From contig JAJPHE010000126.1 of assembly GCA_021325435.1 (NCBI GenBank), positions 1 to 64,000 on the forward strand: DNA of 64,000 nucleotides. The letters run 5' to 3'. A model generated the notes under the pieces. That model was not told the DNA's origin. It was given only the letters and a program-made list of their open reading frames with translations, and made no database searches. This stretch comes from Actinomycetota bacterium. Its GTDB lineage: Bacteria; Actinomycetota; Acidimicrobiia; Acidimicrobiales; JAJPHE01. The number at the start of each line of letters is the position of its first letter. The stretch's first letter is position 1. Shown here piece after piece: positions 51,806 through 54,328 of the stretch. Made by a program: the position numbers and the translations under genes.

Positions 51806-52144
51806 CTAGGCGACGTCGCCGGTACGGGGTCTCGTCCCGAGGAATCGGATGGCCCGCTCGAGGACGTCGACCCCTCCCGCGACGTCAGCGTCGCCCCCGT
51901 CTGCCAGCAGCCTGGTTCTTCCCAGTGCCATGGCGTGGGCCATGGTCGAAGCGTCGCGTTGGGCGGCCCGGAGCAGGTCCAGGGCGACCTCGGGCGGAGA
52001 CTGTCCATTCGGAAGGGCGGCCAGCTCCACAGCGCGTTGCCACACCACCTGCGCCCGCTCCGGCGGTCGCGGGCTATGGGCGGTCGCCAGCTTGCGGCGA
52101 CGACGGTGCGTCCTGACCACCCACTTCCCAAGGTCATCCGCCAT
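51806..52144 (-). CDS. Hypothetical helical protein
   Basis: This 112-residue protein is basic at the N-terminus (VRTHRRRRKLATAHS) and then helical (RAQVVWQRAVELAALPNG, VALDLLRAAQRDASTMAHAMALGRTRLL). There is no signal peptide or membrane segment, and I do not recognise a family. Third-position GC is high, which supports coding. It lies 46 bases after the YihY gene start and 7 bases before a zinc-finger gene on the same strand. Confidence 0.55.
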   Translation of the reverse strand: MADDLGKWVVRTHRRRRKLATAHSPRPPERAQVVWQRAVELAALPNGQSPPEVALDLLRAAQRDASTMAHAMALGRTRLLADGGDADVAGGVDVLERAIRFLGTRPRTGDVA

Positions 52145-52150
52145 GATCGC

Positions 52151-52447
52151 TCACCGGGCCGACCGGACCGAGGATGGATGGCGCCTGACGGCTCCCAGCA
52201 GGGCCTCTCGACAGGGCATGCAGATCCACCACTCGGGCAAGGCGGTGGGGTGGAGGGTGGGGTCCCCCTCGAAGATCCCCCGACACCGTCCACACTGACG
52301 CGGCTGCACCTCCGCCCCCCCGGGCGGCGTCAGGTCCTGCGGCTTGACAGGCCGGTCCGCCGTTACAGCAGGACCGACGCCCTTGACATCGTTGGGCCAG
52401 TGCCGCTCGGGACTCTGGTCTGGACCGACAATCCCGGCGACAAGCAC
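52151..52447 (-). CDS. Hypothetical protein with C-terminal CxxC/CxxC zinc ribbon
   Basis: The C-terminal half holds CGRC and CMPC separated by about 21 residues (including WWICMPC), which fits one zinc ribbon. The N-terminal half is Pro/Val-rich and without recognised fold. GTG at 52447 gives 98 residues; the true start may lie further inside. The gene precedes the 112-residue helical protein and diverges from the SPFH gene across a 233-base AT-rich spacer. Function unknown. Confidence 0.5.
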   Translation of the reverse strand: MLVAGIVGPDQSPERHWPNDVKGVGPAVTADRPVKPQDLTPPGGAEVQPRQCGRCRGIFEGDPTLHPTALPEWWICMPCREALLGAVRRHPSSVRSAR

Positions 52448-52524
52448 GGCGGGCTCCTCTGGCCGCCGGACGGGGGGCGGCCAGCGGCAGCCCTCTTGGC
52501 GGTAAGTCCGAGTCTACGCCTGTA

Positions 52525-52569
52525 TTCTTAGACTAGCAATTTGCTTCTAGAATTGTTGTACCATTCTAC
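52525..52569 (+). promoter_or_regulatory. Promoter/operator of the SPFH gene with shared motif
   Basis: TTCTTA-N17-TAGAAT (52525-52530 and 52548-52553) forms a likely promoter, with a good -10. The spacer contains AGACTAGCAATTT (52530-52542), which recurs on the minus strand before the winged-helix gene (53851-53863). A 6-base inverted repeat TAGAAT-N9-ATTCTA (52548-52568) and an AGTCTA-N12-TAGACT repeat (52511-52534) overlap it. The region is far richer in AT than its surroundings. Confidence 0.6.
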
Positions 52570-52680
52570 GAGTGGCTGACCGCAGCTCGCTGACAATCAC
52601 CCTCGCGCCGTGGTGCTCACAGCCAAGCACCGCCGGGCGCGGCTCAAGCGCCGATAGACGTCGGCGAAAGGAAGGTCATC

Positions 52681-53472
52681 GTGTTCGGCTTCCACGTCAT
52701 CGATCAGTACGAGCTGGGCATCGTGTTCAGGTGGGGCAAGCTCCAGGACAAGGTCCGGCAACCAGGCCTCACCTGGCTCAACCCCTTCAGCTGCCGGTTG
52801 ACGAAGGTGAACATGCAAACCATCGTGGCCCCGGTCCCGGCCCAGGAGGCCATCACCAGGGACAACGTGACCCTCACCGTGGACGCGGTCGTCTACTTCC
52901 GGGTGGTGGACCCCGTCAAAGCCGTGGTGAACGTGCAGAACTACCACCACGCCGTGTCCCAGGTCGCCCAAACGTCGCTGCGCTCGGTGATCGGCCATGC
53001 CGACATGGATCAGCTCCTCTCCGAGCGCGAGCGGGTCAACGCCGAGCTTAAAGACGTCATCGACGAGCCGACCGAGGGGCCGTGGGGTCTGCACATCGAA
53101 CGGGTTGAGGTGAAGGACGTGGCCCTGCCGGACTCCATGAAGCGCTCCATGTCACGCCAGGCCGAAGCCGAGCGCGAGCGTCGGGCCCGGGTCATCGCCG
53201 CCGACGGCGAATACCAGGCCTCCGAGAAGCTGTCCCAGGCGGCGGCGGTCATGGCCGACACGCCGGGGGCCCTTCAACTCCGCCTGCTGCAGACCGTCGT
53301 GGACGTCGCCGCCGAGAAGAACAGCACCTTGGTCATGCCCTTCCCGGTAGAGCTGTTGCGCTTCTTCGACCAGGCCACCACCTCGCCAACTGCGCCGACC
53401 GCTGCCCGGTCCGCCACGGACTTGCGAGCCACCTCACCCGCGGAAGCCGACGGTGCGGTGAGAATCCCATGA
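52681..53472 (+). CDS. SPFH/stomatin-like protein without membrane segment
   Basis: This 263-residue protein contains an SPFH (band 7) domain: QYELGIVFRWGKLQDKVRQPGL, the VDAVVYFRVVDPVKAVVNVQNY strand region, and the long Ala/Glu/Arg-rich helix (MSRQAEAERERRARVIAADGEY). Bacterial slipins normally start with a membrane hairpin, but none is visible here; the domain begins within 10 residues. Ser/Thr/Ala-rich residues end the chain. No NfeD partner gene is adjacent. The GTG has an AAAGGAAGG site. It probably forms oligomers at the membrane through partners (inference). Confidence 0.85.
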   Translation: MFGFHVIDQYELGIVFRWGKLQDKVRQPGLTWLNPFSCRLTKVNMQTIVAPVPAQEAITRDNVTLTVDAVVYFRVVDPVKAVVNVQNYHHAVSQVAQTSLRSVIGHADMDQLLSERERVNAELKDVIDEPTEGPWGLHIERVEVKDVALPDSMKRSMSRQAEAERERRARVIAADGEYQASEKLSQAAAVMADTPGALQLRLLQTVVDVAAEKNSTLVMPFPVELLRFFDQATTSPTAPTAARSATDLRATSPAEADGAVRIP

Positions 53473-53512
53473 CGATGGCGGTCCCGAGCCAAGGACCGCT
53501 GTGACGAAACAC

Positions 53513-53824
53513 CTACCGGCGGGCCCGGGACCGGGGCGGAGCCGGAGCATCGGTGTCGGTCAGAAGGGCCAGAAGCTCCCCGACAGTGCGCTTGCGCTTC
53601 GACGACTCGGGCAGAGGGAGGTGGGTGCGCACCCGGTAGCGGTTTCGCCGCCCGTCCTTCTCCTTCACCAGATAGCCCGCCTCGGTGAGGTCGGAAACGA
53701 TGCCGTAGGCATGGCGTTCGGTTATCGCCAGCTCAGAGGCGATGTCGCGCAGCCTGATGCCGGGGTCATCGGCGATGCACATCAGAGCCCGGGCGTGGTT
53801 GGTCAAGAAAGTCCAGTCGGCCAC
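53513..53824 (-). CDS. Small winged-helix (MarR-like) transcriptional regulator
   Basis: This 103-residue protein is a single winged helix: FLTNHARALMCIADDPGIRL, the recognition region RDIASELAITERHAYGIVSDL and the wing EKDGRRNRYRV, followed by a basic C-terminal tail. It begins with GTG (53822-53824), only 7 bases from the operator-like motif it shares with the SPFH gene. Autoregulation and control of the SPFH gene are likely (inference). The stop lies 40 bases after the SPFH stop, tail to tail. No ligand or metal site is apparent. Confidence 0.85.
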   Translation of the reverse strand: MADWTFLTNHARALMCIADDPGIRLRDIASELAITERHAYGIVSDLTEAGYLVKEKDGRRNRYRVRTHLPLPESSKRKRTVGELLALLTDTDAPAPPRSRARR

Positions 53825-53830
53825 CCATGG

Positions 53831-53882
53831 AGTCTACCATTACTGGAATTAAATTGCTAGTCTTCGTCGACGGGTGTAAGGT
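53831..53882. promoter_or_regulatory. Divergent promoter/operator of the winged-helix and LapA genes
   Basis: The minus strand reads AGACTAGCAATTT (53863-53851), identical to the SPFH promoter motif, followed by a similar AATTCCAGTAATGG. On the plus strand TTGCTA (53854-53859), a 17-base spacer and TAAGGT (53877-53882) could drive the LapA-like gene. A TACCATT heptamer (53835-53841) also recurs at 52558-52564. The element overlaps both promoters, as expected for a repressor site. Confidence 0.55.
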
Positions 53883-53953
53883 GGCTGTACCGGACCAGAG
53901 CGCTCCGGAACTGCGCCAGAACGACTAGCGCTCACTCAAACAGGGATTGTCAA

Positions 53954-54328
53954 ATGACCGACACCAAGGGCCTGCCAGTAAGCGACATCGTCAGCGACGG
54001 CAATTCACAAGCCCCCCGCGGGCCGGAGGGCGCCCCGACCACTTCGGTTGGCGCTCGCCAGCCGAGGGTCACCCGGCTGGGCAACGCCCATGCCGGCCTC
54101 ATCGCCGCCGCGGTGGTCCTCGTCCTGTTGCTCGTGTTCATTTTGGAAAACGCCCATTCGGTCAACGTCGGCTTCCTCGGAGCGCACCTGCAGCTGCCGC
54201 TGTCGGTTGCGCTGCTCTTGGCCGGCGTGGGAGGCGCACTGCTCGTCGGTGCCGTCGGCGCCGGCCGCATTGCGCAGCTGCGCCGGGCCGTGCACCGCGA
54301 AGCGCACCGGTTCGACCAGCCCCGCTGA
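53954..54328 (+). CDS. LapA (DUF1049) domain membrane protein
   Basis: This 124-residue protein has a disordered N-terminal 45 residues and two membrane helices (LIAAAVVLVLLLVFILENA and LPLSVALLLAGVGGALLVGAV) separated by VNVGFLGAHLQ, which is the LapA/DUF1049 pattern. In E. coli LapA is involved in lipopolysaccharide assembly control; in Actinobacteria the family's role is unknown. The ATG at 53954 begins the plus-strand unit behind the shared operator. Confidence 0.85.
   Translation: MTDTKGLPVSDIVSDGNSQAPRGPEGAPTTSVGARQPRVTRLGNAHAGLIAAAVVLVLLLVFILENAHSVNVGFLGAHLQLPLSVALLLAGVGGALLVGAVGAGRIAQLRRAVHREAHRFDQPR

Follow-up and report, generated by a model that had tools for sequence, protein, structure and literature searches.

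The 13-base sequence AGACTAGCAATTT, which recurs in front of two genes in the window (the whole 64,000-nucleotide stretch of DNA analysed here), supplies one arm of a longer dyad with imperfect symmetry and appears to form the core of a winged-helix regulator's two-way switch. We consider it probable that the regulator has an operator with two sites in this genome, that a dimer bound there would shut back-to-back promoters, and that the site in front of the SPFH gene (copy 1) derives from a dead duplicate of the regulator gene. Similar two-way switches appear to precede the regulator's own gene in many actinobacteria, and this genome has two. The first-pass annotation had proposed a small regulon in which the regulator controls itself, the SPFH gene and perhaps a LapA gene. 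That remains the best reading, with the motif tied phylogenetically to the regulator and the LapA −35 box overlapping it, but it was incomplete: the operator is bidirectional, a further gene, P98, is a probable member, and copy 1 looks like a regulator remnant rather than an independently evolved site. Read from sequence, this picture draws on the phylogenetic link between operator and regulator, the bidirectional promoter geometry, the restriction of the motif to two sites, a coding-like relic behind copy 1 and the synteny of P98; repression by occlusion of both −35 regions would be the simplest mode of action.

The genes around the two motif copies are as first described: an SPFH/Band 7 protein of 263 amino acids (52681..53472, plus strand; PF01145, E=1.9e-39; GGAAGG 5 bases before its GTG), a winged-helix protein (PF13463) and, divergent from the latter, a LapA-domain membrane protein of 124 amino acids (53954..54328, plus strand; PF06305, E=5.6e-9). 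The SPFH protein does not classify as HflK or HflC, scoring 81.8 and 36.7 against NCBIfam cut-offs of 159.4 and 134.4, respectively. SPFH and winged-helix genes converge, with 40 bases between their stops (ends at 53472 and 53513), and the motif copies lie at 52530-52542 (plus strand) and 53863-53851 (minus strand) in AT-rich islands (63% and 55% A+T), all as initially reported. The likeness beyond the 13 identical bases (TTCTAGAAT against TTCCAGTAA) was also correctly noted, and reaches further than had been seen, upstream through TACRCCYGT and downstream into coding-like sequence. One detail of the earlier description fails: the motif is not in the SPFH promoter spacer proper, but covers the −35 region, 139 bases ahead of the start codon of the SPFH gene.

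Repeated 13-mers are frequent in the window (1,552 of them, in sequence with 28% A+T), so repetition by itself is weak proof and a chance repeat has to be considered. However, AGACTAGCAATTT is the sole repeated 13-mer in the window with at least nine A/T bases, and it is kept upstream of orthologues of the regulator gene in other genera; this cross-genome footprint refutes the chance reading, to which we give practically no credence. The genome-wide search that the first-pass annotation had proposed as a check, done by pattern matching only over 4,008,378 bases in 160 contigs, found AGACTAGCAATTT exactly twice rather than among dozens of unrelated matches: there were no further copies with zero or one mismatch, and three unrelated matches with two mismatches. 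The long form ACTAGCAANNNNNTTCTAGNA likewise recovered the two known sites only, at zero and one mismatch, when up to two mismatches were allowed across the genome; two more matches at three mismatches are within noise, as the reversed control gave six. A regulon spread over the whole genome was rejected on this result.

The regulator itself is a protein of 103 amino acids with a GTG start (53513..53824, minus strand). It matches PF13463 (HTH_27) just above the curated cut-off (22.8 against 22.2 bits), and its AlphaFold model (pLDDT 77, from 18 sequences) has the H-H-H-E-E-H order of a plain winged helix with a single short C-terminal helix; profile match and fold together identify a winged-helix DNA-binding domain. 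It has the HTH_27 match and the fold in common with MarR-like winged helices, and the closest structures found by Foldseek (HcaR, SlyA, PcaV and AspA) align with TM scores of ~0.5. Membership of the MarR family proper, whose domain of about 140 amino acids has dimerisation helices at both N- and C-terminus, was nevertheless rejected: PF12802 (MarR_2) scores 20 bits against a cut-off of 27, the protein is shorter, the model shows one short C-terminal helix, and the longer MarR part for dimerisation and ligand is missing. AspA of plasmid pNOB8 (PDB 5k5q, 4rs8), a small winged-helix centromere-binding protein of similar length and fold, gives a profile match to regulator positions 3-69 (E=4e-4). 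AspA is a partition protein, whereas here no partition genes were seen beside the regulator gene and the dyads occur singly.

Relatives of the regulator came from 81 of 198 related genomes and from 27 loci of named genomes, including Acidimicrobiaceae MAGs, Humibacillus and Homoserinimonas. In many of them the motif stands ~20-35 bases 5′ of the start codon, and alignment of the operators upstream of 26 orthologues revealed a dyad conserved in the winged-helix gene's own promoter. The bases conserved among 22 aligned operators are ACTAGCAA-N3-ay-TTCTAGwAw, which makes an imperfect 18-bp dyad, CTAGCAAT..TTCTAG. By this pattern the predicted operator of copy 1, ACTAGCAATTTGCTTCTAGAAT, occupies 52532..52553 on the plus strand in the gap between P98 and the SPFH gene, without mismatches to ACTAGCAA-N5-TTCTAG; that of copy 2, ACTAGCAATTTAATTCCAGTAA, occupies 53840..53861 on the minus strand in the gap between the regulator and LapA genes, with one mismatch to the consensus, and is placed as in the orthologues. 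Presence of the motif splits by recognition-helix sequence: relatives with ERxA[YFH] have it, in degenerate form in some, and relatives with ERxAQ lack it. This split makes it very probable that the dyad is the operator of this regulator.

The distribution of perfect matches across the order ties the operator to the winged-helix regulator in the same way. Perfect matches occur in 11 of 397 genomes, and in eight of these the site lies directly 5′ of the winged-helix gene, whose fourth codon in one of the eight (G091) is an in-frame TAG. A further perfect site lies upstream of a winged-helix gene fragment (G322), another falls within a coding region (in G296) of which G393 has a conserved counterpart, and the match in the window's genome is the SPFH copy. 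It is very doubtful that the motif serves some other regulator, or an alternative sigma factor, and only happens to lie near the winged-helix gene, since the perfect motif tracks both this gene and its recognition helix across the order. An alternative sigma-factor promoter element in particular is rejected, as it should have many sites and there are two in 4.0 Mb. Two paralogues of the regulator in the same genome, C48 and C28, have neither such an operator nor informative neighbours, and searches of the accessible literature found no description of this operator or of the winged-helix subfamily.

The arrangement of the operator points to promoters on both strands. On the strand opposite the regulator gene, the motif's TAGCAA reads as TTGCTA, and in 21 of 26 orthologues a spacer of exactly 17 bp separates this TTGCTA from a TAnnnT box; with a TAnnnT frequency of ~2% in these regions, the probability of such conservation by chance is ~1e-30. 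The combination TTGCTA-N17-TAnnnT occurs only twice in the window, once in each operator. In operator 1 it predicts a leftward promoter towards P98 (52511..52539, minus strand; TTGCTA at 52539-52534, TAGACT at 52516-52511), and in operator 2 a rightward promoter towards LapA (53854..53882, plus strand; TTGCTA at 53854-53859, inside the motif, and TAAGGT at 53877-53882). In the other direction −10-like boxes are found by sequence at 52559..52564 on the plus strand for the SPFH gene (TACCAT, where orthologues usually have TAnnnT) and at 53831..53836 on the minus strand for the regulator gene (TAGACT, with the GTG start 7 bases on). Orthologues similarly place a TAnnnT box 7-8 bases 5′ of the regulator's start codon, a spacing that suggests leaderless transcripts, and the regulator's transcript is probably leaderless. 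A scan with a generic sigma-70 consensus found no promoters here. An early idea that the upstream TACnCCTGT element formed part of a three-half-site operator with 14-bp spacing was dropped, because the conserved bases of this element are the −10 box of the opposite promoter. A further GACTAGC just 5′ of LapA (53923-53929) is a single half-site, too short to interpret.

Most likely, a regulator homodimer would bind CTAGCAAT..TTCTAG. As two back-to-back promoters both have their −35 region under this dyad, such binding would shut the pair. At copy 2 the dimer would silence the regulator gene and LapA, and at copy 1 the SPFH gene and P98, perhaps with P112 downstream of it; an envelope or stress signal would then release the regulator. 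The probable targets thus form four units (the regulator gene, LapA, SPFH and P98-P112), an assignment in which LapA and P98 follow from the two-way operator. The sign of regulation could also be the reverse, as the forward promoters have no TTGACA-like boxes and the dyad would then sit at a poor −35 region like a class II activator site. We regard activation as unlikely, however, since the opposite-strand promoter has a fair −35 box, TTGCTA, that overlaps the dyad and thereby favours occlusion, the regulator is a bare winged helix of 103 amino acids, and a comparable autoregulator, SCO3205 of Streptomyces coelicolor, has been read as a repressor (PMC3737563). SCO3205 is the best precedent for the arrangement: a MarR-family autoregulator with pseudopalindromic operators between divergent genes, found by footprinting of orthologues, and few other genomic sites (PMC3737563). 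It differs in its consensus (TTnAAnnnTCAA), in having two separate operators where a single dyad here lies over both promoters, in being a full-length MarR protein, and in its dioxygenase-like divergent gene (PMC3737563).

Behind operator 1, the likeness of the two copies continues: it spans the −10 area, reaches a GTG and extends over ~20 codons of coding-like sequence. This putative relic of a second regulator gene (52572..52630, plus strand, the 3′-end being approximate) now forms the SPFH 5′ leader. Its DNA, GTG GCT GAC CGC AGC TCG CTG AC / AAT CAC CCT CGC GCC GTG GTG ..., reads MADRSSLT, then, after a frameshift, NHPRAVVLTA..., and aligns with the regulator N-terminus, MADW(S/T)FLTNHARALLCIA; the disabling change is a one-base frameshift after codon 7, followed by a TAG. 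The relic is collinear with both promoter and coding start of the regulator gene and carries a lesion. When start codons outside the regulator gene itself were compared with a frameshift-tolerant profile of the family's N-terminus, GTG 52572 ranked best of 4,096 in the window (21.6 bits, the next best being 19.5), and at the DNA level the relic tied for best of 3,324. Likewise, an nhmmer model of the operator plus 5′ coding sequence, built from the 26 orthologues with the window left out, matched the window at 53883-53738 (E=3.7e-32) and 52510-52645 (E=4.7e-12). The SPFH promoter is most likely what survives, at the 5′-end, of a duplicated regulator gene that has died.

Alternatively, copy 1 may be a regulon site of the usual kind, produced by point mutation or by a local duplication of the operator alone, with a leader whose likeness to the regulator's N-terminus is due to chance. 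Two observations lean that way: the coding half of the relic alone reaches only 4.0 bits (E=3.3) in an unanchored search of the window, its match becoming significant only once the start codon is fixed as the anchor, and the leader from ~52624 onwards resembles the SPFH leaders of two other genomes (G030 and G079), so a junction near this position is likely. The resemblance to the regulator gene was, moreover, noticed before its tests were run, and the case for a relic rests on the anchored tests and synteny. These nevertheless make the ordinary-site explanation improbable, as the match runs collinearly from TACRCCYGT through operator, −10 area and start codon into the ~20 codons, the anchored tests place it at or level with the top, and P98 synteny puts a winged-helix gene at this position in other genomes. 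Specifically, P98, a zinc-ribbon-like protein of 98 amino acids (CxxC...CxxC; no Pfam match) encoded divergently from operator 1 (52151..52447, minus strand), has homologues divergent from the winged-helix gene directly in G012 and with an Hsp20 gene between in G040, where a homologue of P112 (112 amino acids; 51806..52144, minus strand), the gene downstream of P98, also follows. A further finding counts against the best explanation: the nearest SPFH orthologues (G030 and G079, ~81%) come from genomes that lack the regulator, and no clear operator accompanies them. Upstream of the G030 gene an operator-like sequence aligns with a score above all 500 shuffles, yet has no intact CTAG, and nothing similar was found upstream of the G079 gene.

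That such an operator can persist after its regulator gene has decayed is shown by G322 (L155:2630-2773), where the operator and a divergent DUF6458-like gene are intact, only a fragment of the winged-helix gene, containing a stop, is left, and no further regulator copy was found in the genome. By the order of events that we infer for the window, a second regulator gene would have died while its promoter and first codons stayed, and the SPFH gene would have taken the downstream place. SPFH is not a conserved partner of the regulator, being beside it elsewhere only in Humibacillus (L041), where it is divergent; its closest orthologues lie elsewhere. In a same-family genome without the regulator (G002, L146:8506-9058) a P98 homologue and LapA stand side by side in tandem, and it seems from this that a block of SPFH and regulator genes with two inverted operators was placed between them.

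The divergent partners of the regulator in other genomes share a theme of cell envelope and stress. They include ice-binding-like proteins (PF11999; L011, L013, L014, L020, L022, L024), DUF6458-like small membrane proteins assigned by sequence with weak or absent Pfam scores (L009, L017, L018, L025, L040, L042, L155), Hsp20 followed by P98 and P112 homologues (L015), P98 directly (L023), a DUF4389 protein (L044), a secreted Big_3_5 protein (L039) and a DUF3159-like protein between two divergent regulator copies (L021/L120). In the last arrangement (G114, L120:4442-6014) each regulator copy flanking the DUF3159-like membrane protein has an operator-like site. In G268 (L154:3414-3471) a second two-way operator separates an ice-binding-like gene from a gene for a DapB-like dehydrogenase; the ice-binding-like gene is convergent with the regulator gene ~2 kb off, repeating the window's SPFH/regulator layout.

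New here are the relic alignment after the SPFH copy and the finding of two other genomes in which P98 is the regulator's divergent neighbour. The kind of system is ordinary; its value lies in the origin of a regulon member, as a candidate example of a structural gene captured into a regulon via the promoter that a dead copy of the regulator left behind. In addition, an uncharacterised winged-helix subfamily, common in this actinobacterial order, gains a defined candidate 22-bp operator and testable targets with an envelope and stress theme (ice-binding-like proteins, SPFH, LapA, Hsp20 and DUF6458-like proteins). Tentatively, and with rather more doubt than confidence, we suggest that regulator and two-way operator form a portable cassette that duplicates beside envelope and stress genes, and that the operator of a decayed copy may hand its neighbour to the survivor. 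If so, regulons may grow by regulator death, with G322 another operator outliving its gene.

Relatives with other recognition helices have different neighbours. In Cryobacterium, Salinibacterium and Nesterenkonia (L047, L049, L050, L052-L054, L060), those with an ERAAQR helix adjoin an SbtA-type bicarbonate transporter (PF05982), with a P-II-like protein also alongside at L047 and L054, and are candidates for the control of inorganic-carbon uptake. Other ERxAQ or ERxVQ relatives adjoin Proton_antipo_M proteins (L026, L029, L037, L051), which are possibly DabB-like subunits of an inorganic-carbon pump and would fit the carbon-uptake idea.
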